Source: an uncultured Hungatella sp.
GTDB taxonomy: Bacteria; Bacillota; Clostridia; Lachnospirales; Lachnospiraceae
DNA: 33,477 bases
NCBI GenBank assembly: GCA_947066955.1
Contig: CAMTAF010000035.1
Coordinates: 1 to 33,477, forward strand
Direction: 5' to 3'
Numbering within the stretch: the first letter of the stretch is position 1; every line of letters begins with the position of its first letter. The position numbers were made by a program, and so were the translations under genes. Below are positions 7,868 through 33,093 of this stretch, in pieces. Under the pieces are notes generated by a model that was given only the letters and a program-made list of their open reading frames with translations, had not been told where the DNA came from and did no database searches.

Positions 7868-7920
7868 CAGAGTACCTTCCTTCCCTTTAAAATATTTTGA
7901 AATAAAAAACATTGTGAAAT

Positions 7921-7949
7921 ATAGTAACGTAACATTATTACATAACTAT
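7921..7949. promoter_or_regulatory. 29-bp palindromic operator candidate
   Basis: Arms ATAGTAACGTAA (7921-7932) and TTACATAACTAT (7938-7949) are complementary at 10 of 12 positions around a 5-base centre. The right arm overlaps the -10 box of the ABC operon promoter by two bases. A dimeric repressor bound here would block transcription. The adjacent ROK protein is the obvious candidate (inference). Confidence 0.55.
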
Positions 7950-7976
7950 ATTACATGATAATATGCCCACAATCAA
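7948..7976 (-). promoter_or_regulatory. Promoter of the ABC sugar operon
   Basis: On the minus strand TTGATT (7971-7976) is separated by exactly 17 bases from TAATAT (7948-7953), a good vegetative promoter. It lies about 80 bases upstream of the lipoprotein start at 7867 and overlaps the palindrome at 7921-7949. Confidence 0.65.
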
Positions 7977-8022
7977 GATAATAAACAGATAAATAAAGAA
8001 CAAATTTCTGTACAAAATATAC

Positions 8023-8047
8023 AAAAAGACTGGTGACTACACCAGCC
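8023..8047 (-). terminator. Terminator of the ROK regulator gene
   Basis: On the minus strand GGCTGGTG (8047-8040) pairs with CACCAGTC (8035-8028), including one G-U pair, across a 4-base loop. A run of five T follows (8027-8023). It begins 14 bases after the ROK stop codon and separates that gene from the ABC operon promoter. Confidence 0.75.
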
Positions 8048-8060
8048 TTTGCGAATATTT

Positions 8061-9317
8061 TTATATGTCTTCGTACAGAGAACTATGTTCCAAAAACTGT
8101 TTCTGCATAAGATAATGGGAGCCTACCAGACAGATGTCAAATAAGTCCTCCAGCTGGAAAACCAGCTGCGTCTGCTGCTTCACGTCCCGGAAGTAAAGAA
8201 AATCCTGAAAGTTTAAGTAGATCCTCTCCTCAAAGCACCTGTGGTATTGGCGGGGGAGGCCGTTGAATACCACGTATTGCGGATCAAAGCACACCGCCAT
8301 ATTCATGAGGGCAGCGAAAAACACGTCAGCCATATAGTCCACCAGTTTTTTCGCCTCCTGATTGCCGTGGTCAGCTGCCTGAAAAACAGACAGGCGGAGA
8401 TCCTTCTTGATCTCGGAGTCGTCATGAAACTGCAAGATAGCGTCTCTCTGTTCCTGGGATAACTTGGAAAAAAGCTCCGCGATTTTTTCTTCTGAGATCA
8501 GGTGGCGGAAACTGGCCTTTTCCTCTCTGCCCGGCCCTTTGTAATTGGAAAAGTCGATGACCATATTTTCGATCTCCCCGCAGATGGGGCTGTCTGTGTA
8601 GGAAAAATGCCCCCGGTCAATCATCCGCATGGAGATGCCTGACCCCCAATACAGCACAAGGATCCTGGAGGAGGCCATCTGAGGGTTAGCCAGCACATGA
8701 GCAGAGACCAGGGCGATGAGATTCTCAATCCGGATGCGGGGAATCTCCGCCAGCCGCCCTTCCAGTATTTTCTTTAAGGGAATATCCTCTCCCCAGTGGG
8801 GACTGGTTGTGGTCTTTCTTATGATTCCCTCTTTGGAATCAATCAATCCGTTGTTTCCCACCAAAAATTCATGGATATTGTCAGGCGCTATCTGGTTGCG
8901 GGAGATCAGAGTCCGGATCCCCGTGACGATGATATCCACATAATCTTCCAGGGTGTAGGCCTCCTCGTGGGGAATCACACACCGGTCCACACATGTGCCC
9001 GAAAAGTCAAAGAGGGCGATGCATATCACAAGATTGTAAATCTGGAAAGAACACAGGAAATAGATCTTTGGATTAATGGCAAATATCTCCGGCCTCTTTC
9101 CGCCAAAGTCCGTGGAGCTGCCCTTGCCGCAGCTTACGACCAGCTGTTTGCTGGAAAAAAAGTCTAATTTCTTTTTCACGGTCTGGCGGCTGATCTTTAA
9201 GGCCGCGGAGATCTCGGCCACCGAATGGGGCTTTCCGTCTTTCATGAAATCAAGGATCAATTTTCGGTTTTCGATGTTTAAATCACGAGGCATAGCTTTT
9301 CCGTTAGTAGTTTTCAT
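8061..9317 (-). CDS. ROK-family transcriptional regulator
   Basis: A 418-residue sugar-responsive DNA-binding protein. The start at 9317 (MKTTNGKAMPRD) is set by GGAGG eight bases upstream. Residues about 15-75 form a winged helix-turn-helix (NRKLILDFM, then HSVAEISAALKISRQTVKKKLDFF). The rest resembles the ROK sugar-kinase fold, with FLVGNNGLID, ALVSAHVLAN and a conserved C-terminal QYVVFNG segment. The usual zinc CxCGxxGC motif is not evident, so the effector domain looks divergent. It has its own sigma-A-type promoter and its own terminator. Its position beside the ABC operon and the palindrome at that operon's promoter make it the likely local repressor. It is also divergent from the PTS operon, so control of that operon is possible. 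Confidence 0.85.
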   Translation of the reverse strand: MKTTNGKAMPRDLNIENRKLILDFMKDGKPHSVAEISAALKISRQTVKKKLDFFSSKQLVVSCGKGSSTDFGGKRPEIFAINPKIYFLCSFQIYNLVICIALFDFSGTCVDRCVIPHEEAYTLEDYVDIIVTGIRTLISRNQIAPDNIHEFLVGNNGLIDSKEGIIRKTTTSPHWGEDIPLKKILEGRLAEIPRIRIENLIALVSAHVLANPQMASSRILVLYWGSGISMRMIDRGHFSYTDSPICGEIENMVIDFSNYKGPGREEKASFRHLISEEKIAELFSKLSQEQRDAILQFHDDSEIKKDLRLSVFQAADHGNQEAKKLVDYMADVFFAALMNMAVCFDPQYVVFNGLPRQYHRCFEERIYLNFQDFLYFRDVKQQTQLVFQLEDLFDICLVGSHYLMQKQFLEHSSLYEDI

Positions 9318-9821: not shown

Positions 9822-10925
9822 ATGGCAAAACAAGAAAAACGATTTATGAGGCATATTCTGACAGGCATTTCTTACATGATACCCATGGTTGTGGCCGGAG
9901 GAATTCTGGGGGCTTTGGCCAAGGCCTTCGGAGGCTGGGATATCGGCAATGCGGTGACGGCGGGCGCGACGCCGTTTTCCAATCTGAATCCCTTTACGTG
10001 GCTGGGCTTCTGGTGGGGCGTGAACAAATTAAGCTCCTATGCCATGGATTTCGCGGTGGCTGTCATGACCGCGGGGGCCGCCTATTCCATAGCGGGCAGG
10101 CCGGGCATTGTGCCGGGCATGATTATCGGATACTGCTCGGCCCAGTCAAAGGCGGGATTTTTGGGAGGCATCCTTATGGCCTTTATCATCGGAGCCGTGG
10201 TGAACTGGATGAAGGGCTGGAAGCTGCCAAAATGGTGCGAGGGGCTGAAATCCGTTATGATCATACCAGTGGGGGCTACATTTTTGTGCGGGATGATCTT
10301 CCTGTGCGTGTTTTCCATCCCATTATCTTTGCTCATGGACCGATTCTCCCAGTGGATAATCGATTTAAACGGCGGTGCCAAGGCGGTGATCGGAGCCGTC
10401 ATCGGGGCTTGTCTTGGGTTTGATATGGGAGGCCCTGTTGGGAAGACGGCTTCCATGGCAGCCAATGCCCTGGGAGCGGATGGGATCAACGGGCCCATGT
10501 GCGCCAAGATCATCGGCGGCATGACTCCTCCCATAGGACTATTTATCACAACGCTGTTAAAGAAAGAAAAATTTACAAAGACCGAGCACGAGACGGCCAA
10601 GACCGCCTTTCCCATGGGCCTTTGTTTTATCACAGAGGGGGTTCTGCCCTTCGCGGCGGCGGACCCTTTGCGGTTTATCCCCTGCAGTATGCTGGGTTCC
10701 GCGGTAGCGGGCGCCATAGCCGTGGGCTCTGGCTGTGAGTCTGTGGCAGGGCACGGAGGGATCTTTGTGATTCCCATGATGAAAAATCCAATGATGTTCG
10801 TGGTGGCCCTGGTTATCGGCTCTCTGGTTACAGGGCTGACCTACGCTGTGCTGAGAAGGCCGCCGGCCGAGGAAGAGACACAAGAACAGGAGCTGGACTT
10901 TGATCTGGATATCAATATCGTATGA
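9822..10925 (+). CDS. PTS fructose-family EIIC permease
   Basis: A 367-residue membrane channel of the fructose/mannitol EIIC family. It opens with the conserved RHILTGISYMIPMVVAGGIL and contains numerous hydrophobic helices, with GGPVGKTA and CFITEGVLPFAAADPLR, the latter matching the family's conserved substrate-site segment (ITEGAIPFAA type). The C-terminal tail is short and acidic (EEETQEQELDFDLD), with no fused IIA or IIB. GGGGAAAG precedes the ATG. Its stop overlaps the following regulator start by ATGA. Together with the IIB upstream and IIA downstream it would import and phosphorylate one hexose-like sugar. Confidence 0.93.
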   Translation: MAKQEKRFMRHILTGISYMIPMVVAGGILGALAKAFGGWDIGNAVTAGATPFSNLNPFTWLGFWWGVNKLSSYAMDFAVAVMTAGAAYSIAGRPGIVPGMIIGYCSAQSKAGFLGGILMAFIIGAVVNWMKGWKLPKWCEGLKSVMIIPVGATFLCGMIFLCVFSIPLSLLMDRFSQWIIDLNGGAKAVIGAVIGACLGFDMGGPVGKTASMAANALGADGINGPMCAKIIGGMTPPIGLFITTLLKKEKFTKTEHETAKTAFPMGLCFITEGVLPFAAADPLRFIPCSMLGSAVAGAIAVGSGCESVAGHGGIFVIPMMKNPMMFVVALVIGSLVTGLTYAVLRRPPAEEETQEQELDFDLDINIV

Positions 10926-12880
10926 AGCAGGATAAAAACGCCTTTTATTATGAGAAAATATTCCGGCTCCTTTTAGAGGGAGAGGTATGTTCCATATCAA
11001 AAATCGGGGAACATGTGGGCTTGTCGGAAAAGACCGTTAGGCTTAAGGTGGATCAGATGAATGATTTCCTGAAAAAGCACGGCATGGGGCAGATTGAGAA
11101 ACGACAGGGAACCGGAATCTGGCTGGCAGCAGACGAGAGGCAGAGGGAAGACTTAAAAAGATATTTGAACTGCACAGTAAGCTTAGAACCGGAGGCGGAC
11201 AACCGGGGAAGACAGATCATAGGGAAACTTCTGAAATTAAAGCCCAATCAGACCGTCACCCTGGGAAGTTTGGCTGAGAGTCTGTATCTGAGCGCCCCTA
11301 CGGCGGGAAGCATCTTAAAGGAGATCATGCCCTGGTTTGAGGAACGGAGGATCCAGGTGGTTTCTGTCCGAAGCAAAGGGCTCTGCCTTGTGGGGAGCGA
11401 ATACGATTTGCGGGTATCGATCAAGGATTATATGCTGGAGATGATGCCGGAGGTGATGGAGGCGCTTTTTGGCACATTTACCCCAGGTGTTGACACGGAC
11501 AGGGTCCGCAGGCTGGTTCTTGAGGCGGAAAACGCCTGGAGGATCGAGCTTGCCGACAGTTCCTTCAAGATGGTCTGGATCATGGCCTGTCTCAGCCTGG
11601 GGAGGAGGCAGTACGGCGGGAAGGAAGCGTTTTTTGCCAGTGAGGAGAATATCCAGCATTATAACGAATACGCCTTCGCTGAATCCATTTACCAGAAAAT
11701 GGAAAGCGCTTTTCAGGTTAAAATCCCGGACAGTGATATCGGTCTTTTGGCCATGCTGCTTCTGTCGGCAAAAAGGCTCAAACATTTCGCGGGGATTCCG
11801 GAGACCGATTATGCCAGACAGTATGACAGAGATCTGAGGGATTTTGTCAACATGGTTATGGACACCATCGACGCTGTCCTGGATATTGACCTCTCAGAGG
11901 ACGAGCTGCTGAGGGAGAGCCTGATTCTTCATCTGCGCTCAGCTATTTTCCGGATGAAATACTCCACTGCCCTTGGTGATAACATAAGCAGATACGTGAA
12001 AAATGAGTATAAGCAGACCTTTCTGGCGGCATGGTCCACCAGCAATCTGTTTGAGGAGTACTATGACGTTCAGGTGACAGAGGATGAGTTGGCCGGCATT
12101 GCCCTTTATATCCAGGCAGCTCTGATCCGGAAGAATAAGAACCGGCCCCTCACGGCCCTCCTGGTGAGCAGAGGGGGGCTGGCTGCCAGCCAGCTGAATA
12201 TCGAGATGCTGAAATACCAGATTCCTGAGATAAGAGAGATCCAGACAATCAGTCTCCATGATTTCAAACCTGGTTCCAACGGCTGGGCAGATGTGATTAT
12301 TAATACCACCGGAAGGGAGATCGACGATGACCGGGCAGTGGATGTGGAGGAGCAGGTGGCCGCGCAGGGAATCGAGGCCATACGGGGGAAAGTGAATCAG
12401 ATTTTCTCCGGCAGAAAAGGTCAGGGCTTTGGTTTCAGCAGTCTCTGTCATCAGCTGTTTGAGCCGGACCTGATTCTGATTAAGCCTGGGGCAAACAATA
12501 AAGACCAGCTGATCACCATGATGGTAAAGAAGCTGGAGGACAAAGGCGATGTGACATCAGACTATCTGCCAAGCGTCTTTGAGCGTGAGAGGGCTACCAC
12601 TACCAGCATCGGCAGAGGAATCGCCATCCCTCATGGAAATATGCGGGAGATCAATGAGCCGAGGATCGTCATAGCAATACTGGATTCGCCAATCAGGTGG
12701 CACGACGATTTGGTAGATGTGGTGTTTCTGCTGGCAGTAAAAATGACGTCAAAATTTGAGATACAGAGGACAAAACAATTTTACAGGGAATTTCTTCAGC
12801 TGACAGACAATGACGAAAATCTGAACACCATGAAAAACATGGGTTCAGCGCTGGAGATTTACCAGTATTTTATCAGATAG
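10922..12880 (+). CDS. PRD/EIIA-containing transcriptional regulator (MtlR/LicR type)
   Basis: A 652-residue activator or antiterminator-like regulator. The order is N-terminal HTH (residues about 1-60, SKIGEHVGLSEKTVRLKVDQM), a second winged-helix region, two PRD modules, an EIIB-like domain (about 405-480) and a C-terminal EIIA (about 505-652). EIIA keeps its phospho-histidine (His571 in GIAIPHGN). By contrast the EIIB-like cysteine position is Ser416 (LLVSRGGLAAS). Of the four expected PRD histidines only one is obvious, His337 (LILHLRSA); the others appear as IMA, LLAML and LYIQ. PTS control may therefore run mainly through the EIIA domain. ATGA overlap with IIC indicates coupled translation, and it probably controls its own operon. 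Confidence 0.88.
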   Translation: MKQDKNAFYYEKIFRLLLEGEVCSISKIGEHVGLSEKTVRLKVDQMNDFLKKHGMGQIEKRQGTGIWLAADERQREDLKRYLNCTVSLEPEADNRGRQIIGKLLKLKPNQTVTLGSLAESLYLSAPTAGSILKEIMPWFEERRIQVVSVRSKGLCLVGSEYDLRVSIKDYMLEMMPEVMEALFGTFTPGVDTDRVRRLVLEAENAWRIELADSSFKMVWIMACLSLGRRQYGGKEAFFASEENIQHYNEYAFAESIYQKMESAFQVKIPDSDIGLLAMLLLSAKRLKHFAGIPETDYARQYDRDLRDFVNMVMDTIDAVLDIDLSEDELLRESLILHLRSAIFRMKYSTALGDNISRYVKNEYKQTFLAAWSTSNLFEEYYDVQVTEDELAGIALYIQAALIRKNKNRPLTALLVSRGGLAASQLNIEMLKYQIPEIREIQTISLHDFKPGSNGWADVIINTTGREIDDDRAVDVEEQVAAQGIEAIRGKVNQIFSGRKGQGFGFSSLCHQLFEPDLILIKPGANNKDQLITMMVKKLEDKGDVTSDYLPSVFERERATTTSIGRGIAIPHGNMREINEPRIVIAILDSPIRWHDDLVDVVFLLAVKMTSKFEIQRTKQFYREFLQLTDNDENLNTMKNMGSALEIYQYFIR

Positions 12881-17632: not shown

Positions 17633-19423
17633 ATGGCAAGGACAGTGGCAATGGGCTATCAGGATTTCGCGAAGATAAGGGAACGGTCTGTCTTTTATGT
17701 AGACAAAACGAATTTTATTAAGGAGTGGTGGGAGGGAAAGGATGAGGTGACACTGATTGCCCGCCCCAGACGTTTCGGCAAGACATTAAATCTGAGCATG
17801 GTGGAAAAATTCTTTTCTGTTCAGTATAAAGGGCGGGAAGATCTGTTTCAGGGGCTGGCCATATGGGAACATGAAAAATACAGGGAGCTTCAGGGAAGTT
17901 ACCCTGTGATCAGCTTATCATTTGCCAATGTGAAAGAAAAAAGCTATGCCGCAACGATCCGAAGAATCAACCAGATATTGACAAATCTGTATTCTGGATA
18001 TAGATTCCTCGTGAGTGACAGGGATTTTGATCATAAGGAACGGCGTTTTTTTGACTCGGTAGACGTAGATATGGATGAGTCCACGGCAACTATGGCGATT
18101 CATCAGTTGTCTTATTACCTGTCCCGTTATTATGGCAAAAAAGTAATTATTCTGTTGGATGAATATGACACGCCGATGCAGGAGGCCTATGTGAACGGCT
18201 ATTGGCCCGAGCTGGTCTCATTTACCAGGAGCATGTTCAACTCTACATTTAAGACAAATCCCTATCTGGAGCGGGCGATCATGACAGGCATCACCAGGGT
18301 GAGTAAAGAATCTATTTTTTCAGATCTGAATAATCTGGAAGTCATAACCACAACCTCAAAAAAATATGAGGATTGTTTTGGCTTCACGGAAGAGGAGGTT
18401 TTTGCGGCACTAGATGAATTTGATCTCAGTGGCAAAAAACGGGAAGTAAAGAACTGGTATGATGGTTTTACTTTTGGGAATCGCACGGACATCTATAATC
18501 CATGGTCCATTTTAAATTATCTGGATAAAAAGAAGTTATCCACCTACTGGGCAAATTCCAGTTCTAACAGACTGGCCGGGGAGCTGATCCGTGAGGGAAG
18601 CAAAGAGATAAAGCAACTCATGGAAGACCTTCTGTCAGGGAAAACCATTGAAATGGAGATTGACGAGCAGATTGTCTATGATCAGTTGAAAACCAAACGG
18701 AATGCTGTCTGGAGCCTGCTCTTGGCCAGCGGGTATTTGAAGGTAGTGAATACGGAATTCGTGGAACAGGAAGGACGCACTTATTACGAATTGAAATTGA
18801 CCAATAAAGAGGTAAAGGTCATGTTTGAGACCATGGTGCGGGACTGGTTCTCGGAGACAGAAGGGACTTATAATGATTTTATCAAGGCAATGCTTTTAGA
18901 TGATATAGATGCCATGAACGAGTATATGAATAGGGTGACAATGACCATATTCAGTTATTTCGATACGAGGAAGAATCCTTCACAGGAAGAACCGGAGCGT
19001 TTTCACGGTGTGAAAGCGATCACTGAGCGTTCTACAGGACAGAACGCAAGTGCCTGCTTTTACCACGGTTTTGTGTTGGGACTGATGGTGGAATTGTCCG
19101 GACGGTATGTACTTACCTCCAACAGGGAGAGCGGTTTTGGCCGGTATGATGTTATGCTGGAGCCGCTGAACCCCCAAAGGGATGGGGGAATCATCATGGA
19201 GTTTAAAGTGTTTCAGCCGAGAAAGGAAAACTGTCTGGAGGATACGGTGGAAGCCGCGTTAAGGCAGATTGAAGAGAAAGAATACCAGACAGCACTTATT
19301 TCCAGGGGAATTCCGAAGGAGAGAATCCGGATGTACGGATTCGCGTTTCAGGGGAAAGAGGTTTTGATTGGGAACCGGGATGAGAGAGGAGCGCGCCAAT
19401 GGGATTTGAAAAAGCCAATTTGA
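17633..19423 (+). CDS. AAA-ATPase-like / PD-(D/E)XK nuclease-family protein, copy 1
   Basis: A 596-residue protein with an N-terminal AAA-ATPase-like domain and a C-terminal DUF1703-type PD-(D/E)XK domain. Walker A is RPRRFGKT at 44-51 and Walker B is VIILLDEYDTP. The nuclease-like core has Asp506 (GRYDV), Glu523 and Lys525 (MEFKV). The family is abundant in gut Clostridia and Bacteroidetes, and its role is unproven. Two oddities distinguish it from copy 2 at 26640. First, residues 458-476 are an in-frame insertion encoded by a palindromic 57-bp segment. Second, the last seven residues (WDLKKPI) come from the cassette inserted downstream; without it the frame would end after GAR-Gln in a TGA overlapping the sbcD ATG. 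A good promoter lies upstream. Confidence 0.88.
   Translation: MARTVAMGYQDFAKIRERSVFYVDKTNFIKEWWEGKDEVTLIARPRRFGKTLNLSMVEKFFSVQYKGREDLFQGLAIWEHEKYRELQGSYPVISLSFANVKEKSYAATIRRINQILTNLYSGYRFLVSDRDFDHKERRFFDSVDVDMDESTATMAIHQLSYYLSRYYGKKVIILLDEYDTPMQEAYVNGYWPELVSFTRSMFNSTFKTNPYLERAIMTGITRVSKESIFSDLNNLEVITTTSKKYEDCFGFTEEEVFAALDEFDLSGKKREVKNWYDGFTFGNRTDIYNPWSILNYLDKKKLSTYWANSSSNRLAGELIREGSKEIKQLMEDLLSGKTIEMEIDEQIVYDQLKTKRNAVWSLLLASGYLKVVNTEFVEQEGRTYYELKLTNKEVKVMFETMVRDWFSETEGTYNDFIKAMLLDDIDAMNEYMNRVTMTIFSYFDTRKNPSQEEPERFHGVKAITERSTGQNASACFYHGFVLGLMVELSGRYVLTSNRESGFGRYDVMLEPLNPQRDGGIIMEFKVFQPRKENCLEDTVEAALRQIEEKEYQTALISRGIPKERIRMYGFAFQGKEVLIGNRDERGARQWDLKKPI
19004..19060 (+). repeat. 57-bp palindromic in-frame insertion
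   Basis: Compared with copy 2, copy 1 has 57 extra bases between the codons for PERF and YHGFVLG, flanked by TTT on both sides (19001-19003, 19058-19060). The insert folds: GCGTTCT (19027-19033) pairs perfectly with AGAACGC (19041-19047) over a 7-base loop. Pairing continues outward through CACT/AGTG and TG-AAAGC/GCTTT-A blocks to about 19010/19063. It adds 19 residues without breaking the frame. Confidence 0.6.
19387..19401 (+). repeat. 15-bp direct repeat, left boundary of the cassette
   Basis: AGGAGCGCGCCAATG occurs here and again, perfectly, at 21080-21094. The right copy is the functional ribosome binding site and start codon of sbcD. The left copy is a fossil of the same site inside the 3' end of the first AAA gene. 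Confidence 0.85.
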
Positions 19424-19463
19424 GAATTTTCCTAAATATTTAGAAGTAGAAAGAAGTGATTGG

Positions 19464-20183
19464 ATGCCATCTAAAATATATTTATGGATTGAGGATAGAG
19501 AGGGAAAGGCAGGTTGCATATTTTGGAACAGCCTTTTGAGATATTTATTTCCGAATGTTATAGTTGAAAGTAAGAAAAACAGCAGCGGCCTTTTAAAAGC
19601 TGTTAAAAATTTAGACGATAGCGAGAGCAGATATGTGATTGTTTTTGACAATTCATTTGATAATACACAGGCAGTAAAGGAACAGAAATTGTTGAATCAA
19701 TATGTGGATAAAAGAAAAAATGTAGTTTTGATGGATATTATTTGCTTTGAGTATATTCTGTTGGAATTCAAAGATCTGATTCATTGGATTTATGCGCCAG
19801 ATGATGAATTTCTGAAAAGGAGAGAAAGGGCAATATCGGCGAGAGAGAGGCTGGTTAAATCCATAGGGAATGGGAATATGAATTATAAAGATATGAGGGA
19901 AATTGTAGAATATGATGAACATATTGATGAACATAATATAGAGCAGTTATCAGCAAAACTTCTATTTGATTTAACCAGGAATACAGGGTTTGAAGTTTCA
20001 AAAGGAAAAATCGGAGACTGTTGGGTTAAATCCTGCTGTGAATGGAAAAAACGGATAGATAATGATGTTTGCGGATTGGAGTATAGCGGCAGATTGACTG
20101 TGTATGATAAAATGAAAAATATATATGAGGGAACGTGTCTTAAGAAGCAGTTCCATGAAGCGGGATTGGAGGAAATCTTATGA
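19464..20183 (+). CDS. TOPRIM-like protein of unknown function (cassette gene 1)
   Basis: A 239-residue soluble protein that I do not recognise as a named family. Its N-terminal half resembles a TOPRIM or DUF4435-like fold: a strand ending in acidic residues (IYLWIEDREGKAG), a helix, then a hydrophobic strand ending YVIVFDNSFDN, and later VVLMDIICFEYIL. In TOPRIM enzymes the Glu and Asp residues at such positions bind metal, but this match is by eye and weak. The C-terminal half is helical, with a charged stretch (RRERAISARERL) and several cysteines (CWVKSCCEW). AT-rich codon use contrasts with the neighbours. A modest GAAGTGATTGG precedes the ATG, and a 12-bp palindrome (19432-19443) lies upstream. 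Its stop overlaps the DUF4869 gene by ATGA. Confidence 0.6.
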   Translation: MPSKIYLWIEDREGKAGCIFWNSLLRYLFPNVIVESKKNSSGLLKAVKNLDDSESRYVIVFDNSFDNTQAVKEQKLLNQYVDKRKNVVLMDIICFEYILLEFKDLIHWIYAPDDEFLKRRERAISARERLVKSIGNGNMNYKDMREIVEYDEHIDEHNIEQLSAKLLFDLTRNTGFEVSKGKIGDCWVKSCCEWKKRIDNDVCGLEYSGRLTVYDKMKNIYEGTCLKKQFHEAGLEEIL

Positions 20184-20623
20184 TTACGATCTTTAAAGAT
20201 AAAAAGGATATACCTGAGGACATGGAATATGTGGAATTAAATGATATATTTTTTAATCAAAACACGGTGGCTTTCATTGATAAACAAGCTGAAAGGATCA
20301 TTGAGACAATAGACAATGCTGAACTTATTGGAAAATATAAGATTTGTTCCAGGTTTAATGATGTCACATTAGATATAGACAGACTTTCAACGGGATGCAA
20401 AACAGTACTAAATGTACTATATTATCCGAATAAAGTATTTTGTCTGAAAGAATGTGGCAATAATGCGCTGGATATTTTATACCATTTTGAAACAGGATAT
20501 GTGTTTAGCGAATATGCATTGATACCTTTTTCTATGGATTCTGTTATTGCGCGGAGTAAGTCGGGTAAAAAAGTAATCAATGATTATGAAAAGTTAAAGG
20601 AGTGGTGGGATATTGAAAAGTAG
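20180..20623 (+). CDS. DUF4869-family protein (cassette gene 2)
   Basis: A 147-residue protein resembling DUF4869, a family of about 150 residues found mainly in Firmicutes and of unknown function. Supporting features are the short N-terminal strand MITIFKD, an acidic ELNDIFF segment, IDNAELIGKYKICS, and the characteristic LSTGCKTVLNVLYYP followed by ECGNNALDILYHF, which matches the family's G-x-K-T-L and CGDN-C-A region. There is no signal peptide or membrane segment. Its ATG overlaps the upstream stop (ATGA at 20180-20183), and its own end overlaps the TTG start of the ATPase. That tight packing suggests the three products are made together and may form a complex (inference). Confidence 0.7.
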   Translation: MITIFKDKKDIPEDMEYVELNDIFFNQNTVAFIDKQAERIIETIDNAELIGKYKICSRFNDVTLDIDRLSTGCKTVLNVLYYPNKVFCLKECGNNALDILYHFETGYVFSEYALIPFSMDSVIARSKSGKKVINDYEKLKEWWDIEK

Positions 20624-21041
20624 ACCTCTTGTTATGGATCATTTTTCTACGGTGCATACTTCATTTATTCTGAACTTTAGATTTACTAACAACATAACCA
20701 TTTTGATGGGCGATTCCGGTACAGGAAAAACAGCAGCCTTTTCATTTATTAGAGAATGTATGGCGGTCAATTCCAAGATCCTTTGCTTAAATTATCTTGA
20801 TTACCAGAATGATATCAGAGATATGATAGGCAGGGCTAATGGTAAGCTGATTGTTATTGATAATGCGGATATTTTATTAAATGATGATACGAGAAAATAT
20901 ATCTCACTGGATGAAAAGAATCAATACCTGATTATTGGAAGAAATCCGAAGAATCTTTTTGCCACGAAGGAGAATTTATTTGAATTGGTGAGCAAGAAGG
21001 TGGGGGAGCAGACGGAATTTACGATAAAGGAATATTTATAA
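20613..21041 (+). CDS. Small P-loop ATPase (cassette gene 3)
   Basis: A 142-residue P-loop NTPase. Walker A is GDSGTGKTA within ITILMGDSGTGKTAAF, and Walker B is KLIVIDNADILL. It then has YLIIGRNPKNLF, a possible sensor-1 strand ending in Arg/Asn. This is far shorter than a complete AAA+ module and has no lid domain, so it may need a partner. The start is TTG at 20613, preceded by AAAGGAG and overlapping the DUF4869 gene by 11 bases; the next ATG, at 20634, lacks a site. AT-rich codon use matches the other two cassette genes. ATPase plus TOPRIM-like protein recalls the logic of ATPase/TOPRIM defence pairs, but homology to any known system is not established. Confidence 0.8.
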   Translation: MKSRPLVMDHFSTVHTSFILNFRFTNNITILMGDSGTGKTAAFSFIRECMAVNSKILCLNYLDYQNDIRDMIGRANGKLIVIDNADILLNDDTRKYISLDEKNQYLIIGRNPKNLFATKENLFELVSKKVGEQTEFTIKEYL

Positions 21042-21079
21042 CTCAGAACAGACACACAGCTTGAAAGATAAAAACGAAA

Positions 21080-21094
21080 AGGAGCGCGCCAATG
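21080..21094 (+). repeat. 15-bp direct repeat, right boundary, and sbcD start site
   Basis: A perfect copy of the sequence at 19387-19401. Here it provides AGGAG plus the ATG of sbcD, so the cassette left sbcD expression signals intact at the translation level. Confidence 0.85.
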
Positions 21095-22228
21095 AAATTG
21101 ATTCATTTATCGGATCTTCATCTGGGAAAGCGTGTCAATGAATTTTCCATGATTGAGGACCAGGCTTATATCTTAAAGAAAATACTGGGCATTGTCAGGG
21201 ATGAGGAGCCGGACGGTGTTTTGATCGCCGGGGATGTCTATGACAAATCTATCCCATCGGTGGAGGCGGTGGGGCTTTTTGATGATTTCCTGAGACACCT
21301 TGCCAGACAGAGGGTGCAGGTGTTTATCATCAGCGGAAATCATGATTCCCCGGAGCGGCTTGCCTTTGGGGCTGAACTGATCCAGCTAAGCGGCATCCAC
21401 ATCGCGCCGGCTTACAGCGGGAGGGTGGAGCCGGTTTCTTTGAAAGACGACTACGGGGCCGTACATATCTACATGCTCCCCTTTATCAAGCCGATTCATG
21501 TGCGCAGCGTTTTCCCGGAGGAGAAGGTGGAATCTTATACGGACGCGGTCCGCGGGGCGATTTCCCACATGGATATTCAGGAGTCGGAGAGAAATATCCT
21601 GGTGACCCACCAGTTTGTCACAGGGGCCCAGCGCTCGGAATCAGAGGACATCTCCGTAGGCGGCTCTGACAATGTGGACGTCTCTGTGTTTGACAGTTTT
21701 GACTACGTGGCCCTGGGGCATATCCACGGCCCCCAGAGCGTGGGAAGGGAGAGCGCACGGTACTGCGGCACGCCTTTAAAGTATTCTTTTTCCGAGGCAA
21801 ATCATCACAAGTCGGTGACAATCCTGGAATTGAAGGAAAAGGGAAGTCTGGAGATCCGTACAGTAGAGCTGTCCCCTCTCCGGGATATGAGGGAACTGAG
21901 AGGCACCTACGAGGAGCTGACCAACAGGAAAAATTATGAGGGGACAAGGACCGACGATTATATCCGCATCACCCTCACCGACGAGGAGGATGTGGTGGAT
22001 GCCATGGGAAAGCTGCGGGTTATTTACCCAAATCTGATGAAACTGGATTATGACAACAGGCGGACCAGGGAAAATCGGGAGCTGACAGGGGGCGAGGCCG
22101 AGGAGTCCAGGACTCCTTTAGAACTGATCATGGATTTTTATGAGCAGCAGAACAATCAGCCCATGAGCGGGAAGCAGGCAGCGTTGGTGTCAGAACTGAT
22201 GGAGAAGATCTGGGAGGAGGAGCTATGA
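21092..22228 (+). CDS. sbcD: Exonuclease SbcD (Mre11-like) subunit
   Basis: A 378-residue nuclease subunit of the SbcCD complex, which opens DNA hairpins and trims double-strand ends. All five metallophosphoesterase motifs are visible: DLHLGKR near residue 8, AGDVYDK, SGNHDSPERL, VTHQFV and GHIHGPQ. The length is normal. It starts with ATG inside the 15-bp repeat, after AGGAG. Its stop overlaps the sbcC start (ATGA at 22225-22228), the usual arrangement for this pair. Upstream of it now lies the inserted cassette, so transcription probably reads through the cassette or starts inside it. No good promoter is visible in the 50 bp between. Confidence 0.95.
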   Translation: MKLIHLSDLHLGKRVNEFSMIEDQAYILKKILGIVRDEEPDGVLIAGDVYDKSIPSVEAVGLFDDFLRHLARQRVQVFIISGNHDSPERLAFGAELIQLSGIHIAPAYSGRVEPVSLKDDYGAVHIYMLPFIKPIHVRSVFPEEKVESYTDAVRGAISHMDIQESERNILVTHQFVTGAQRSESEDISVGGSDNVDVSVFDSFDYVALGHIHGPQSVGRESARYCGTPLKYSFSEANHHKSVTILELKEKGSLEIRTVELSPLRDMRELRGTYEELTNRKNYEGTRTDDYIRITLTDEEDVVDAMGKLRVIYPNLMKLDYDNRRTRENRELTGGEAEESRTPLELIMDFYEQQNNQPMSGKQAALVSELMEKIWEEEL

Positions 22229-25200
22229 GACCGTTAAAACTTGTGATATCGGCATTTGGCCCTTACGCGGGGCGGACGGAGCTGGATTTTGAAAAGCTGG
22301 GTAAAAGCGGGCTGTACCTGATCGCCGGGGACACCGGGGCGGGGAAGACCACCATTTTCGACGCCATCACCTACGCGCTGTACGGGGAGGCCAGCGGGGA
22401 TAAAAGGGAGACAACCATGCTCCGGTCCAAGTACGCCCAGCCGGGAACCCCCACGGAGGTGGAGCTGACATTTTCCCATGGGGGAAAGGAATATAGGATA
22501 AAGAGGAATCCAAAATACCAGCGTCCGGCAAAGCGGGGCAAGGGGATGACGAAAGTCGAGGCAGGCGTGGAACTGATCTGTCCTGACCGGCCTCCTCTGA
22601 CAAAGATAAAGGAAGCGGACGAGGCGGTGGTGGAGATTCTGGGCATTGATCAGAATCAGTTTTCCCAGATCGTCATGCTGGCCCAGGGGGATTTCCGAAA
22701 GCTGCTTATGGCAGATACCAGGGAGCGGCAGGACATCTTCAGGAAGGTGTTTCGGACACAGTATTATCAGGAATTTCAGCAAAAGCTTAAGGAGCAGGCG
22801 GCAAAAGCTTCCGGGGAGTGCGAGGATGCGAAAAAGAGCGTGAGCCAGTATGTTAAGGACATATACTGCGACGAGGAGAATGAATATTTTCCCCAGGCAG
22901 ATAAAGCCAGAAAGGGCGAACTCCCTATAAAGGACACCATGGAGCTTCTGGAAATTCTGGCAGAGCAGGATGCCCAGGAGGAGGAAGCTCTGAGCGGGGA
23001 ATTGAGGCTTCTGGAGCAGAAGCTGACAGAGGTGAACGGGCGGATCATCAAGGCAAAAGAGCAGGAGAAGGACAGAGAGAATCTGGAAAAGGTCCGCCAG
23101 GAGGAGCAGGTCAACCTTGCGCTTCTGAAAGAGCGGAAAGAAGCATTTCAGAAGGAAGAGGAAAAGAAAGGCAGGCAGGAGGAGATCAAGAGGGAGTCTG
23201 CCCTGATGGAACAGGAACTGCCGGAGTATGACAGGCTTGGCCGGCTGGCGGAGGATATAGGAAAATTGGCCAGTGAGCTGGAAGACAGTGAAGAGAAGGC
23301 CGGGGCAGACCAGCAGAAGGCCAGAGAGCTGGGAGAGAAGCTGGAAGAACTGAAAAAAGAACAGGCCGGCCTGGCCGGCGCGGGAGAACAGAAAGAGAGG
23401 CTGAGCGGGCAAAAAGAGAAGGCCAGGCAGCACCTAAAAATCTGTCAGGACTTGGAAAAGGCCAGGCAGCGGGAGCAGGAGGCAACGGTTTCCCTGGACA
23501 AAGCCTGCCAGGATCTGCAGGTTCAGGAGGACAAAAAGGAGAGGCGGGAAGAGTTAAAGGGACAAGCCACACTCCTGGAACAGGACCTGCCAGAGTATGA
23601 CAGGCTGGAGCGATTTGAAGAAGAGGCAGGGATTCTTAAAGGGCAGCTGGAGACGCTTAAAAAAGAAGAAGAGGAAAAAACCAGAGAGTCGAGAGAGATC
23701 CGCCAGCAGCTGGAAGACCACCGGAAAGAACAGGCCGCCTTGTCCCGTGCCGGCGAGGAGAAGGAAAGACTGATTCATCTGAGGGACAAGGCGGAGAAAT
23801 ATAAAGAAGATTGCGAAAGCCTGGAAAAAGTCCGGAAGCAGGAGCAGGAGGCAGCGGAAGGTCTGGAGCAGGCTAAAGGGGCATTTGAGGCAGAGCAGCA
23901 GAAGACGGAGCGAAAGGAGGAGATCGGGAAGATCCTTGCCCGTCTGGAGCAGGATCTGCCAAAGCACGACCGGCTGGACCACATAAGGACTCAGCTGGAT
24001 GAGCTGGAAAAAAGCCTTAAGAGCAATGGGGAACAGGCCAAAGAGAAGAGCCAGGCAAGGGAGGAACTGGAGAAAGACTTGGAGGGGCTGAAAGAAAGGC
24101 AGGCTGCCCTGGCCGGGGCCGGGGAGAGAAAGGAAAGCCTGATGAGGCAGAAGGCCCAGGAGGAAAGCCGCCTGGACAGTTTAAAGAAGCTGGAGGGGGA
24201 GGTACAGGTTTACGAAACTCTCCAGACAGAGCTGAAAAAGAGCCAGGATCAGTACCAGAAGGCCCGGGAACAGGCGGAGGCATTGGAGGACATCTATTCC
24301 AGGCTGAACCGGGCATATTTAGATGGGCAGGCAGGGATACTGGCCAGGGGGCTGGAGGAGGGTCAGGCCTGCCCGGTGTGCGGCGCGACCCACCATCTCA
24401 AGCTGGCCCAGGTTCCGGAGGAGGTGCCTGGAGAAGAGGAACTGGACAAGGCCAAGAGAGATTCTGAAAAGGCATCCAAAAAGGCGGCGGACGCCAGCGC
24501 GGAGGCGGGAAAGATAAGCGGAAAGGCTTCTGAGCAGGAGGCCCGGCTTCTGGAGCTGCTGGAGACGCTGCTGGGGCATAAGGAACTTTCCAGGGCTGCG
24601 GAACAGGCCAGGGAGGAGAGCTTTTTGTCCAGGAAGAAGCTGGAGGAACTAGAAGAACAGATCCAGATGGAAGAGGATCAGATCAGGGAGAAAACGGTTC
24701 TGGATCAAAGGGTCAGGGAAAAAGAGGGGCAGGTAAAAATATTAGAGCCAGAGATCGCCGGATTGAGGAATCAGATTGCCGGGGCAGAGGCCCAGAAAAA
24801 GACCTTGTCAGAACAGGCGGAGGCTGACGTCAAGGAATTGTACTGCAAGAGCAAGAAAGAAACCCAGAGAAAGCAGAAGGAATTGGAGGAGGAGCTTGGG
24901 ATTTTAAAGGAGCGGTATGATAAGGCGAAGCTGGCTTATGAAGAATGGGACCGCAAGAAGACGGAACTGGAAAACCGGATTCAATTTTATAAGGAACAGC
25001 TGGCGGGAACGGAATATTTTGAGAGGACAGAAGAACTGCTGCCAGGGTTAATCGGAGAGATCAGCGAGCTGAAAAGGCAGCAGGAAGAGGAAGAGAAAAA
25101 GATCGCGCGGAAAAGCGAACTGGATGGGCAGATTCCAGCGGAGGAACAGAGGGCCGAGGAAATAAACGGGGAATTGGAAAAGTTAAAAGAAAAAGCGGCT

Positions 25201-26568
25201 CAAGCGGAGAGGAAGAGAGAAAACCTGTCCGGACAGGTGGAAGCGCTGAAGAGAAAGCTGAAATACGGAGGAAGAAAAGAGGCAGAGGAAATACTGGGTC
25301 AGCAGAAGGGAGAGCTGAAAGCCCTGGAGGAGGCTTATGACGAGGCCCAAAAGGCACACAGCGCCCGCCAAAAGGACAAGGAAGCCCTGGGGATTCAGAT
25401 CGATTCCTTAGAACGCCAGCTGGACGATCCCAAGTATGTGGAGGAAACGGAAGAACAGATATCTGTTTTGAGACAAAACATAGACCATTTAGAAGAGCAG
25501 ATCTGCAGGGAAGAAGCAAACCTGGAACGCAAAGGGGAGCTGGATGAGAGGATTCCTGAGATGGAAAAGACCCTGGAACGGCTGGAAAAGGAAACCGGGG
25601 AATTAAAAGAAAGGATTCTGAAAGCCAGAGCTCAGAAAGAGTCTTGGGAAGAGCAAAAACAAGAACTGAAGAAAAAGCTTCGCTGTGAAGACAAAATTCA
25701 GGCCCAGGAGGCAGCAAAGATTTTGCTGGAGGAACTGAAAGCCCTTGAGGAGGCATATGAAGCCGCGGCCCAGGCTTATGACCTTTGTGTCAAAAGGAAA
25801 GCGGAGCTGGAAGGCCAGGCCAGGTCTCTCACAGAGCGGCTGGAACAGGCGGAACCCATCAGCGAATCAGAGGAGACGGAAAAGCAGGCCAAGCTCACAG
25901 AAAAAAAGGCAGAGGTCAAGGAAAAAGAACATGCAGTGCGTTTCAGGCGGCAGACCAACGAGAGCCTTTTGGAAAACATCCGAAAAAGGTCAAAGGATCT
26001 GGCGGCGTTGGAGGAGCGGTACGGGTGGCTCTCTAACCTCTCGGATACCATGAGCGGCGGTCTGAGGGACAAAGAGAAGATCATGCTGGAGACCTATGTT
26101 CAAATGTCTTACTTTGACCGCGTTATCCGCCGCGCCAACTTGAGGCTGATGATCATGTCCGGCGGACAGTATGAGTTCAAACGCCTCATCGGGGCAAGCA
26201 ACTTGAGAAACCAGAGTGGGCTGGACTTAAATGTGGTGGACCACTATAACGGTACGGAGCGCAGCGTCAAGACCCTGTCCGGCGGTGAGTCCTTTATCGC
26301 CTCATTGTCCCTGGCCCTGGGACTGTCGGAGGAGATCCAGTCCAGCGCCGGGGGGATCCAGATGGACACCATGTTTGTGGATGAGGGGTTTGGGAGCTTA
26401 GACGAAAACGCCCTGGGACAGGCCTACAACGCCCTGGTGAGCCAGACCGACGGCAACCGCCTGGTGGGAATCATTTCCCATGTCAGCGAGCTGAAGGATA
26501 AGATCGATAAGAAGATCGTGGTGGTGAAGGAGAAGAGCGGGGGGAGCCGGGCGGAGGTTCAGGTGTAG
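22225..26568 (+). CDS. sbcC: Exonuclease SbcC (Rad50-like) ATPase with enlarged coiled coil
   Basis: A 1,447-residue SMC-like ATPase, partner of SbcD and well above the roughly 1,000-1,200 residues common for SbcC. The N-terminal half-ATPase has Walker A GDTGAGKT at 35-42 and the Q-loop region NQFSQIVMLAQGDFRKLL. The zinc hook CPVC is at 716-719. The C-terminal half has the signature LSGGE at 1351-1355 and Walker B MFVDEGFGSLDE. The extra length is internal repetition: in the outgoing arm a 123-residue unit begins at 333, 456 and 579 (PEYDRL, PEYDRL, PKHDRL), and in the returning arm a 140-residue period places TELENR, EALGIQ and AELEGQ at 913, 1053 and 1193. The arms therefore appear to have grown together. 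The ATPase motifs are intact, so the protein is likely functional. Confidence 0.95.
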   Translation: MRPLKLVISAFGPYAGRTELDFEKLGKSGLYLIAGDTGAGKTTIFDAITYALYGEASGDKRETTMLRSKYAQPGTPTEVELTFSHGGKEYRIKRNPKYQRPAKRGKGMTKVEAGVELICPDRPPLTKIKEADEAVVEILGIDQNQFSQIVMLAQGDFRKLLMADTRERQDIFRKVFRTQYYQEFQQKLKEQAAKASGECEDAKKSVSQYVKDIYCDEENEYFPQADKARKGELPIKDTMELLEILAEQDAQEEEALSGELRLLEQKLTEVNGRIIKAKEQEKDRENLEKVRQEEQVNLALLKERKEAFQKEEEKKGRQEEIKRESALMEQELPEYDRLGRLAEDIGKLASELEDSEEKAGADQQKARELGEKLEELKKEQAGLAGAGEQKERLSGQKEKARQHLKICQDLEKARQREQEATVSLDKACQDLQVQEDKKERREELKGQATLLEQDLPEYDRLERFEEEAGILKGQLETLKKEEEEKTRESREIRQQLEDHRKEQAALSRAGEEKERLIHLRDKAEKYKEDCESLEKVRKQEQEAAEGLEQAKGAFEAEQQKTERKEEIGKILARLEQDLPKHDRLDHIRTQLDELEKSLKSNGEQAKEKSQAREELEKDLEGLKERQAALAGAGERKESLMRQKAQEESRLDSLKKLEGEVQVYETLQTELKKSQDQYQKAREQAEALEDIYSRLNRAYLDGQAGILARGLEEGQACPVCGATHHLKLAQVPEEVPGEEELDKAKRDSEKASKKAADASAEAGKISGKASEQEARLLELLETLLGHKELSRAAEQAREESFLSRKKLEELEEQIQMEEDQIREKTVLDQRVREKEGQVKILEPEIAGLRNQIAGAEAQKKTLSEQAEADVKELYCKSKKETQRKQKELEEELGILKERYDKAKLAYEEWDRKKTELENRIQFYKEQLAGTEYFERTEELLPGLIGEISELKRQQEEEEKKIARKSELDGQIPAEEQRAEEINGELEKLKEKAAQAERKRENLSGQVEALKRKLKYGGRKEAEEILGQQKGELKALEEAYDEAQKAHSARQKDKEALGIQIDSLERQLDDPKYVEETEEQISVLRQNIDHLEEQICREEANLERKGELDERIPEMEKTLERLEKETGELKERILKARAQKESWEEQKQELKKKLRCEDKIQAQEAAKILLEELKALEEAYEAAAQAYDLCVKRKAELEGQARSLTERLEQAEPISESEETEKQAKLTEKKAEVKEKEHAVRFRRQTNESLLENIRKRSKDLAALEERYGWLSNLSDTMSGGLRDKEKIMLETYVQMSYFDRVIRRANLRLMIMSGGQYEFKRLIGASNLRNQSGLDLNVVDHYNGTERSVKTLSGGESFIASLSLALGLSEEIQSSAGGIQMDTMFVDEGFGSLDENALGQAYNALVSQTDGNRLVGIISHVSELKDKIDKKIVVVKEKSGGSRAEVQV
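23221..24327 (+). repeat. Three 123-codon repeats, outgoing SbcC coiled-coil arm
   Basis: Units start at residues 333, 456 and 579 with exactly equal 369-bp spacing. Each has P-x-x-D-R-L at its start, and about 45 residues later KEQA or RQAA, then AGE-x-KE. The second half of a further copy precedes the first unit (NLEKVRQEEQ versus SLEKVRKQEQ). The DNA has diverged, so the duplication is not recent. Confidence 0.8.
24961..25914 (+). repeat. 140-codon periodic repeats, returning SbcC arm
   Basis: Matching segments lie 420 bp apart: TELENR (residue 913), EALGIQ (1053) and AELEGQ (1193). KSELDGQIP at 963 matches KGELDERIP at 1103, and ALEEAYDEA at 1033 matches ALEEAYEAA at 1173. The third unit is partial, ending near residue 1230. 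Confidence 0.7.
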
Positions 26569-26639
26569 TTACTTGATTAAGGAGGGACAGCCACTATCAA
26601 GGCTCTGGATTAATGGGAGAAGAGAAGGGAGGCGATAAT

Positions 26640-28337
26640 ATGGCAAGAACATTGGGAATAGGGAAACAGGATTTTGAAAAAGTGCGGAAAGAAGGTGCTT
26701 TTTATGTAGATAAAACAAAATTTATTCGGGAATGGTGGGAAAGCGAGGATGATGTGACACTGATAGCCCGTCCCCGGCGCTTTGGAAAAACCTTAAATAT
26801 GAATATGTTGGAAAAGTTTTTTTCTGTTCAATATGCGGGGCGTAAAGATTTATTTCAGGGGTTAACAATATGGGATGATGAAAAATACAGGATACTCCAA
26901 GGGACCTATCCTGTTATTAGTTTATCCTTCGCCAATGTGAAAGAAAGAAGTTATGCAGCAACAGTTCATAGAATCAATCAGATACTGACGAATCTATATT
27001 CTGCAAATCGATTTCTTATGCATGATGGGAATTTGGACGATAAAGAACGGCGTTTTTTTGATTCTGTAGATGTAGATATGGATGAAACGACGGCAACAAT
27101 GGCAGTACATCAATTATCTGGTTATCTATCACGTTATTATGGGAAAAAAGTGATTATCTTGTTGGATGAGTACGATACGCCGATGCAGGAAGCTTATGTT
27201 AATGGCTATTGGGACGAACTTGTATCTTTTACTAGAAGTATATTTAATGCATCTTTTAAGACTAATCCATATCTGGAGCGGGCAATAATGACAGGAATTA
27301 CCAGGGTAAGCAAGGAATCAATATTTTCAGATTTAAACAATCTAGAAGTGGTTACTGCAACATCTGAAAAATATGCGGATTGTTTCGGATTTCGTGAAGA
27401 AGAAGTTTTCGCTGCATTGGATGAATATGGATTATCTTCGAAGAAACAGGAAGTGAAGAAGTGGTATGATGGGTTTACCTTTGGCAGACAAAATGATATT
27501 TATAACCCATGGTCAATATTAAATTATCTGGATAGAAGACAGATAGGAACTTATTGGGCAAATTCCAGTTCAAACAGTCTGGCAGGAAAGTTGATTCGAG
27601 AAGGAAGTCGAAATGTAAAGGAATGCTTTGAGTATCTTTTGCAGGGCAAGTCAATTATTGTAGAAATTGATGAGCAAATTGTTTATGATCAATTAGATGA
27701 AGATGAGTCAGCAATTTGGAGTTTACTGCTTGCCAGCGGTTATTTAAAAGTAAAAAACGTAAATACTTATGCAACAGATTTTGGGGAATGGAGGCAGGAG
27801 TATGAACTGGAATTAACTAATTTTGAAGTAGGGGCAATGTTCCGTCTGATGATCAGAAAGTGGTTTGGCCGTTCTGCGGGAGGTTATAATGATTTTATTA
27901 AAGCGTTATTGAACGACGATGTAAAGGGCATGAATGTTTACATGAATAAGGTAGCAATGGCGACATTCAGCTATTTTGATACTGGAAAAAGTCCTTCTGA
28001 AGAAGCACCTGAACGATTTTATCATGGTTTTGTATTGGGACTGATGGTAGAACTGGCGGATCGATATGTATTGACTTCTAACCGGGAAAGTGGTTTTGGG
28101 CGTTATGATGTCATGATGGAACCGAGAAGGCCAGAGGATGTTGGAATAATTATGGAATTTAAGGTACAGGACAAAGCAGAAGAGAAGGAGCTTTTCGATA
28201 CAGCGAACGCGGCATTGAAGCAGATAAAAGAAAAGAAATATGAAACAGTATTGATGGAAAAAGGAATTTCCAGTGAGAAAATCCGCTGTTATGGCTTTGC
28301 TTTTTGCGGAAAGCAGGTATTGATTGGAAAAGGATAA
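26640..28337 (+). CDS. AAA-ATPase-like / PD-(D/E)XK nuclease-family protein, copy 2
   Basis: A 565-residue paralogue of the gene at 17633, closely similar along its whole length. The start at 26640 (MARTLGIGKQDF) follows GGGAGG; the ATG at 26613 lacks a site. Walker A RPRRFGKT and Walker B VIILLDEYDTP are identical to copy 1. The PD-(D/E)XK residues are Asp490 (GRYDV), Glu506 and Lys508 (MEFKV). It has no counterpart of the palindromic insertion and ends ...VLIGKG. Codons here are visibly more AT-rich than in copy 1 and in sbcC, suggesting a separate arrival rather than a recent tandem duplication. It lies about 70 bp after sbcC, so the two copies bracket the sbcDC pair. Confidence 0.88.
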   Translation: MARTLGIGKQDFEKVRKEGAFYVDKTKFIREWWESEDDVTLIARPRRFGKTLNMNMLEKFFSVQYAGRKDLFQGLTIWDDEKYRILQGTYPVISLSFANVKERSYAATVHRINQILTNLYSANRFLMHDGNLDDKERRFFDSVDVDMDETTATMAVHQLSGYLSRYYGKKVIILLDEYDTPMQEAYVNGYWDELVSFTRSIFNASFKTNPYLERAIMTGITRVSKESIFSDLNNLEVVTATSEKYADCFGFREEEVFAALDEYGLSSKKQEVKKWYDGFTFGRQNDIYNPWSILNYLDRRQIGTYWANSSSNSLAGKLIREGSRNVKECFEYLLQGKSIIVEIDEQIVYDQLDEDESAIWSLLLASGYLKVKNVNTYATDFGEWRQEYELELTNFEVGAMFRLMIRKWFGRSAGGYNDFIKALLNDDVKGMNVYMNKVAMATFSYFDTGKSPSEEAPERFYHGFVLGLMVELADRYVLTSNRESGFGRYDVMMEPRRPEDVGIIMEFKVQDKAEEKELFDTANAALKQIKEKKYETVLMEKGISSEKIRCYGFAFCGKQVLIGKG

Positions 28338-32856: not shown

Positions 32857-33093
32857 ATGGTTGCAGTTGAAGGTTTGTATGAGAATGGCAGAATTCGGTT
32901 ATCCGAAACAGCACCAATGGAGACGGCAAGGGTTATTGTGATCTTTCCAGGAGACCGGAATGAGGAGAGCCATATATCAGATCAGACTGCAAGAGAGCTG
33001 TTTGACGAATTTACAGGGAGTATTCAAAGAACGATTGATGAAAAAAAGGAGCTCTTAGAGAGGTTAGATAAAAAATATGCGGGTATTGATTGA
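32857..33093 (+). CDS. Antitoxin-like protein (AF2212/DUF2281-like)
   Basis: A 78-residue protein with a short beta-rich N-terminus (VAVEGLYENGRIRLSE and ARVIVIFPGD), as in small antitoxins that pair with PIN toxins. An acidic, helical C-terminal half (RELFDEFTGS, then EKKELLERLDKKY) would wrap the toxin. GGAGATGGAGAG precedes the ATG, and a consensus promoter lies upstream. It overlaps the PIN gene by 17 bases, the usual antitoxin-first order with coupled translation. In such pairs the antitoxin, alone or with the toxin, represses the shared promoter. The family name is a guess from pattern; the antitoxin role is supported mainly by position. Confidence 0.7.
   Translation: MVAVEGLYENGRIRLSETAPMETARVIVIFPGDRNEESHISDQTARELFDEFTGSIQRTIDEKKELLERLDKKYAGID

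Follow-up and report, generated by a model that had tools for sequence, protein, structure and literature searches.

The window analysed here, a stretch of 33,477 nucleotides from an uncultured Hungatella sp. of the family Lachnospiraceae (GenBank assembly GCA_947066955.1, contig CAMTAF010000035.1), carries a compact cassette of three genes between a gene of the AAA-ATPase_like/PDDEXK_9 type and the host gene sbcD (Table 1). The cassette genes overlap one another and encode, in order, a TOPRIM-like protein (hereafter TOP), a protein of the DUF4869 family, and a small P-loop ATPase whose open reading frame (ORF) starts at TTG. By examining how these genes are distributed, which motifs they carry and how they are fused in relatives, we hypothesize that the latter two may be the halves of one divided ABC (ATP-binding cassette) ATPase and that TOP may be its effector.

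The segment between the AAA gene and sbcD

The segment is bounded by two copies of AGGAGCGCGCCAATG, a perfect 15-bp direct repeat that a preliminary description of this DNA had already pointed out, and no third copy with up to one mismatch occurs in the assembly (4.2 Mb, 240 contigs, 92% complete). When one repeat copy and the segment are removed in silico, the TGA of the upstream gene (at 19400) overlaps the ATG of sbcD (at 19399), so that an ATGA junction is restored, and the upstream protein shortens from 596 to 589 residues; the 589-residue form looks natural because alignments with close paralogues of the gene run to about residue 580-588. The readable pre-insertion state of the preliminary description is thereby recovered. 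When the window was shuffled 100 times with its dinucleotides kept, one shuffle gave two matches to the repeat at up to two mismatches (0.10 expected), the longest exact repeat in base-shuffled 400-nucleotide flanks (60 shuffles) was 11, and among 1,056 mismatched pairs of flanks drawn from 33 loci a single pair reached a 15-bp repeat. In a BLAST comparison of 1.5-kb flanks the repeat alone has an expectation value (E) of only 0.007, within the range of controls (6 of 208 pairs at or below 0.01); its weight accordingly comes from its position at both ends and from the restored frame, and not from its BLAST score.

The cassette is AT-rich, as the same description had stated, with a guanine-plus-cytosine (GC) content of 0.336, compared with 0.526 for sbcD and 0.448 for the upstream AAA gene; since the value of the AAA gene differs from both of the others, this gene may be a separate and earlier arrival at the locus. 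In 29 other sbcD loci (flanks of up to 1.5 kb) and in 10 longer stretches, sbcD has neither the AAA gene nor the cassette at its side. Because these relatives lack the AAA gene there, the pre-insertion state is read from the sequence of the window, with no relative showing an empty AAA-sbcD site. A promoter scan found 9 candidates against 8.6 expected. The idea that the cassette is part of sbcDC was considered and rejected: sbcD is absent from the fetched stretches of 29/29 other cassette loci, and among the sbcD loci just mentioned the cassette occurs only at that of the window.

Table 1. Positions in the window of the inserted segment, its genes and motifs, and the genes on either side.
Feature	Position	Strand	Remarks
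Direct repeat, left copy	19387..19401		15 bp
Inserted segment	19402..21079	+	1,678 bp, GC 0.336
TOP (TOPRIM-like protein)	19464..20183	+	239 residues; presumptive nuclease effector
TOP E10-D11 codons	19491-19496
TOP D62 codon	19647-19649
TOP E96 codon	19749-19751
DUF4869 protein	20180..20623	+	147 residues; PF16163; putative signature half of a divided ABC ATPase
ABC-signature-like motif LSTGCKT	20384..20404	+	DUF4869 residues 69-75
ECGNNAL	20450..20470	+	DUF4869 residues 91-97; putative role as D-loop and degenerate end of Walker B
Small P-loop ATPase	20613..21041	+	142 residues from TTG; proposed Walker A/B half
Walker A GDSGTGKT	20709..20732	+	in small P-loop ATPase
Walker B-like IVIDNAD	20850..20870	+	in small P-loop ATPase
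Direct repeat, right copy	21080..21094		15 bp; includes likely ribosome-binding site and sbcD start codon
Upstream AAA-ATPase_like/PDDEXK_9 gene	17633..19423	+	PF09820 E 9e-48, PF08011 E 1e-15; outside the cassette
sbcD	21092..22228	+	downstream host gene; SbcD_C E 7e-23, Metallophos

Spread of the three genes as a unit

A scan for TOP over one genome per species revealed 29 other loci, and in every one of them TOP, DUF4869 and the small ATPase are all present in the same order. These loci are not all independent (L020 and L021 have a common neighbourhood; L006, L011 and L012 have a common downstream relative), and two are contigs of only about 3 kb. The proteins vary little in size: 146-147 residues for DUF4869, 142-143 for the ATPase, and 236-239 for intact TOP, with the position that aligns to residue 1 taken as its start. 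Beyond the cassette genes, similarity ends within tens of bases at most loci, as judged by eye, and about 100 bp of left flank are common to L006, L011, L012, L014 and L018 (again by eye). Clustering of 340 neighbouring ORFs found no constant neighbour, the largest cluster being present in 8 of the 29 loci at scattered distances. Ten of the 29 downstream genes and nine upstream genes were scanned for identification; among the downstream neighbours, hisS, pyrC, cbiD and recQ exceed NCBIfam cut-offs, while an RsmF-like methylase, a PAP2-type phosphatase and an Alw26I-like methylase fall below them, and a TOTE primase-helicase was recognised with Pfam. With a simple longest-ORF caller, the next gene is co-directional with the cassette in 23/29 loci. 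The mobile module proposed in the preliminary description is supported by this linkage in mostly different contexts.

At one locus, L026, the site was found empty in 8 of 30 relatives, where an HD gene is followed by hisS (>70% identity) after 2-166 nucleotides, compared with 1,695 nucleotides in L026; at the remaining 22 HD-gene loci the next match is a hisS-like gene of 25-28% identity, or there is none in range. No flanking duplication was seen by eye at this HD-hisS site, and an empty-site search around genome G379, whose genus holds one genome, brought no gain. The empty sites anticipated by the preliminary description thus exist between the HD gene and hisS, and none was found at the AAA-sbcD position to which it had looked. 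A phage or plasmid origin seen directly was also considered and rejected: viral contigs held no relative (each scan consisted of two peptide patterns), phage records searched with DUF4869 and TOP gave 0 DUF4869 matches and a single TOP match of 32%, and plasmids searched with DUF4869 gave 0 matches.

The wider family is patchily distributed. A DUF4869 profile detects it in 35 of 299 genomes of the family Lachnospiraceae, and a broader profile in 49 of 392 genomes of the order, ten of them outside the family; one of these ten, G062, is probably spurious and on inspection holds an unrelated protein. The Pfam DUF4869 model found only the genome of the window among 398 genomes of the phylum and none of 14 controls, an undercount, as the window copy itself falls below the cut-off. 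One Lachnospiraceae genome, G211, has 13 diverged DUF4869 loci (L128-L140), all with an ATPase (in one case joined to a TOPRIM-like domain); 8 have a TOP-like match when this fusion and one partial match are included. The genome of the window has copies on contigs C35, C49, C67, C95 and C131, those other than the window copy being only distantly related to it. In a second set of loci the ATPase lies directly downstream of 51 of the 60 DUF4869 ORFs on the same strand. Of the other nine, several are fragments or border the end of a contig, and L169 has its ATPase upstream. Many distant copies have the gene order DUF4869, ATPase, TOP. TOP is the part most often shortened or missing while the other two persist, and DUF4869/ATPase pairs with no recognisable TOP are common.

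Some individual loci are arranged unusually. In L006 and L011 the cassette lies 14-16 nucleotides upstream of the TOTE primase-helicase (L006, 11577-14555, by Pfam on L006) or of its relative (L011); in L012 the relative begins further from the cassette, according to the ORF caller. The TOP frame of L017 (8438-10705) continues without a stop, and in the same phase, from an upstream ORF whose end is ABC-exporter-like by eye, as if the cassette had cut into that ORF and become fused to it. L028 has a distant DUF4869-ATPase-TOP set (7357-8882) about 1 kb upstream of a set of the window type (9944-11295) in which TOP is truncated.

Motifs and folds of the cassette proteins

The DUF4869 assignment of the preliminary description stands, at 28.7 bits and E 1.3e-6 against PF16163, just under the Pfam gathering cut-off of 28.9 bits; the model is matched by all of 15 diverse members (E up to 1), the best at 4.4e-58. 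Its P-loop ATPase likewise holds, with Walker A and B motifs present and D83, N84, A85 and D86 invariant in a 29-member alignment. The small ATPase matches AAA_22 (E 9e-4) and LmuB (E 1.4e-6), and, at E 0.015-0.79, profiles including the Ec83 ATPase, PtuA and AriA among others. Pfam, NCBIfam, PHROGs and PADLOC brought no gain for TOP or the DUF4869 protein beyond the DUF4869 model, and the matches listed for the cassette proteins include no transposase or integrase family, in agreement with the earlier statement that no recombinase is present.

The motifs of the two small proteins are complementary. At the motif level, an LSxGxKT-type sequence occurs in 55/60 DUF4869 ORFs and Walker A in 0/60, while Walker A occurs in 50/53 ATPase ORFs and the signature motif in 0/53; the Walker A (GDSGTGKT), Walker B (VIDNAD) and signature motifs of an ABC ATPase are thus all present when both proteins are taken together. 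Across 15 diverse DUF4869 members S70, G72, K74 and T75 of the signature-like motif are invariant, as are C92, G93 and N95, and CGxN is found in 54 of the 60 ORFs. The predicted structure of the DUF4869 protein has a predicted local distance difference test (pLDDT) score of 91, and its fold matches shown are weak ones to ABC heads, including those of Rad50 and SMC. On the side of the P-loop protein, hhalign aligned it with the N-lobe of SbcC at probability 44 and a pairwise E of 3.7e-5. Judged by motifs and predicted structure, DUF4869 resembles the signature half that the small ATPase lacks.

Both joints of the DUF4869-ATPase-TOP series are found as single chains in relatives, which argues for one physical machine in which the ABC lobes are permuted. 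Chains that unite the P-loop protein with a TOPRIM-like domain occur in L139, L169, L172, L177, L179 and L182 and twice in L270, the L139 match being one by construction because the TOP profile included its domain. At the other joint, a 371-residue protein in L266 (1754-2866) matches both the DUF4869 profile (E 3.6e-12) and the ATPase profile (E 7.8e-8), and carries signature and Walker A motifs outside the 60- and 53-ORF counts given above.

TOP is a presumptive nuclease. Its best AlphaFold2 model (pLDDT 77) has four beta strands, and a TOPRIM fold is preferred because of these strands and of a match to OLD over the whole protein. The residues invariant across 11 diverse members include E10, D11, D62, C94, E96 and C191, and E10 supplies the Glu of a TOPRIM domain after strand 1. 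A profile search of PDB sequences with TOP brought no gain; DUF4435, a fold that the preliminary description had named beside TOPRIM, matches weakly in 3 of 26 members, and TOP has no PADLOC match.

A proposed split ABC ATPase with a TOPRIM-like effector

Taken together, these observations lead us to read the locus as a horizontally spread operon cassette that combines an ABC ATPase split into two complementary small proteins with a TOPRIM-like effector, an interpretation to which we give an even chance. Its basis is the spread of the genes as a unit, their strict linkage, the complementary motifs, and the fusions at both junctions; ATP-dependent pairing, nuclease activity and a role in defence would follow by inference. 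Several results weigh against it. Comparison of DUF4869 with the C-lobe of SbcC by hhalign gave a probability of 0.04, so that homology to the ABC/SMC C-lobe was not found at the profile level, and a DUF4869 profile search of PDB sequences gave no match. The fold matches of TOP to OLD, GajA, AriB and TOPRIM are tied with receiver domains, which leaves the TOPRIM proposal of the preliminary description compatible with the model and not decided by it. A TOPRIM domain is expected to have a DxD after strand 3, and in the 11 diverse TOP members D62 alone is invariant there.

More tentatively, and with slightly less than even confidence, we hypothesize a so far undescribed class of mobile immune cassettes in the Lachnospirales, to which this cassette would belong. 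In it a signature-only DUF4869 protein and a P-loop-only protein, in permuted order, would form a composite ATP site only on meeting, and this state of assembly would gate a TOPRIM-like nuclease, the 13 loci of G211 being a repertoire. In the split-ATPase reading itself, the 142-residue P-loop protein would contribute Walker A and B, and DUF4869 would be an ABC-head-like protein that has lost its P-loop and kept the signature motif. The two would close on one ATP, each forming one face of a composite ABC site; in the heads of ABC proteins the P-loop of one partner is acted on, across the dimer, by the signature of the other (PMC7049728, in part). This switch would hold or license TOP, which would cleave nucleic acid on a signal from an invader, much as AriA and AriB work together in PARIS and the ATPase and Toprim domains in OLD and GajA.

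By analogy, the cassette is an apparent relative, so far undescribed, of known anti-virus systems. In PARIS (the ABC ATPase AriA with the Toprim protein AriB, a proposed Class 4 OLD) the ATPase and Toprim are on separate genes, occasionally fused (PMC10568477, in part); the Toprim nuclease AriB cuts tRNA (PMC12409363, in part). AriA is a single chain of 464 residues, whereas the cassette would divide its ATPase once more, into 147 and 142 residues, and the small ATPase reaches the AriA and AriAB models at E 0.0025 and 0.0016 only. OLD and GajA of Gabija have one ATPase chain fused to Toprim (PMC7049728, in part), whereas the cassette genes are separate in the window, the fusions in relatives run signature half, P-loop half, TOPRIM-like domain with the lobes permuted, and the cassette has no helicase gene. 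The heads of SMC, Rad50, SbcC and LmuB of Lamassu resemble the cassette proteins in an N-lobe like the P-loop protein (the LmuB match), and DUF4869 in its LSGGEKT-like signature and fold matches; unlike them, the cassette has no coiled coil, its halves are on separate chains, and its DUF4869 protein has no Walker A. We have not filed the cassette under PARIS or OLD because a single-chain AriA, an OLD fusion and the TOPRIM DxD were looked for and not found.

PF16163 is a family of unknown function, and neither DUF4869 nor a 'split ABC ATPase' is mentioned in the literature searched. No description of the cassette appears in the parts of that literature available to us, and an earlier description in a 2020 survey of ABC ATPases is possible. 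If DUF4869 is the signature half of the ATPase, which the preliminary description had not foreseen, its analogy with defence systems becomes more specific, and the family would be assigned a structural and mechanistic role. The cassette would then be a natural dissection of the ABC switch, with half-sites evolving as separate proteins and a division of labour between signature and P-loop testable by mixing halves; it would also add, in a dominant gut family, a dispersed immune candidate embedded in host operons outside the classical defence islands.

Among other explanations, an addiction module of the toxin-antitoxin kind, in which TOP would be the toxin and the DUF4869/ATPase pair the antitoxin with no infection trigger, is unlikely and has the best claim of them: it would agree with the preferential shortening or loss of TOP, the tight overlapping operon, the insertion beside ordinary genes, and the names in PDB that label AriA an antitoxin, but by itself it leaves the common pairs with no recognisable TOP unexplained, and no DUF4869 matches were found on plasmids. 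Rather less probable is a module of genome maintenance, a Rad50-like split head with a nuclease acting on broken DNA and placed beside sbcDC by chance or selection. The resemblances to the SbcC N-lobe and to Rad50/SMC heads are what it would predict, and an archaeal OLD family ATPase has been reported in the cell cycle, apparently with no antiviral role (PMC12796447, in part); however, accessory conflict genes would better account for the patchy distribution, the joint spread of the three genes, the presence of as many as 13 diverged copies in one genome and an effector that is often lost, and sbcD is in none of the 29 other loci, as far as the fetched stretches reach (two being the contigs of about 3 kb).

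The flanks of other loci bear on how the cassette enters a site. Exact flanking repeats of at least 15 bp occur in 2 of 33 loci (15 bp in the window, 48 in L022). In a hand-chosen set of 27 loci, which includes these two with their repeats already known, such repeats occur in 6 (adding 20 bp in L156, 35 in L151, 52 in L150 and 62 in L132), or in 4 of 25 when the two are left out, compared with 1 of 208 mismatched pairs. BLAST over 1.5-kb flanks gave E ≤0.01 in 15/70 loci versus 6/208 controls and E <1e-10 in 7/70 versus 1/208, the clearest repeats being those of L151 (40 bp), L022 (51 bp), L156 (64 bp) and L132 (265 bp); of the seven strong cases, L150 and L015 look like repeats of neighbouring genes and the repeat of L028 is far from the unit, and these were counted and not relied on. 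A flanking repeat does not regularly accompany the unit, as most loci have none, and there is no target duplication of fixed length (15 bp in the window, then 40, 51, 64 and 265 bp). The inverted pairs found in the window copy are all internal, with none at its ends. Because repeat lengths vary, terminal inverted repeats are missing from the window copy and the proteins match no transposase or integrase, we read entry as probably due to general recombination or end joining, with occasional duplication of target sequence, and not to transposition by an enzyme of its own. A self-mobilising element, with TOP as recombinase, the ATPase pair selecting targets and variable duplications left behind, is very improbable: the many insertion sites, the excess of flanking repeats over controls and the absence of a neighbour at a constant place speak for it, but not the variable or missing repeats, the lack of terminal inverted repeats in the window copy, the lack at most loci of conserved ends beyond the likely ribosome-binding site (by eye), or the merely distant relationship of the other copies in the same genome. 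In L015 a 955-bp direct repeat of 84% identity surrounds the cassette and is probably a pair of paralogous genes split by the insertion.

Several features of the neighbourhood of the cassette may also be recorded. AAA-ATPase_like genes of one family flank sbcDC on both sides (17633-19423 and 26613-28337, the first identified by Pfam), and the genome of the window contains at least nine matches to the AAA gene at 63% identity or more, itself included, four of them with stops (9 of 47 candidates scored). SbcC (22225-26568) has 1,447 residues, compared with 1,446 in the nearest relative, L077, and 921-973 in eight other relatives; self-matches of about 40% identity within its coiled coil suggest internal expansion. 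At 32857-33406 two small ORFs appear by eye to encode an antitoxin and a PIN-domain (VapC-like) toxin.

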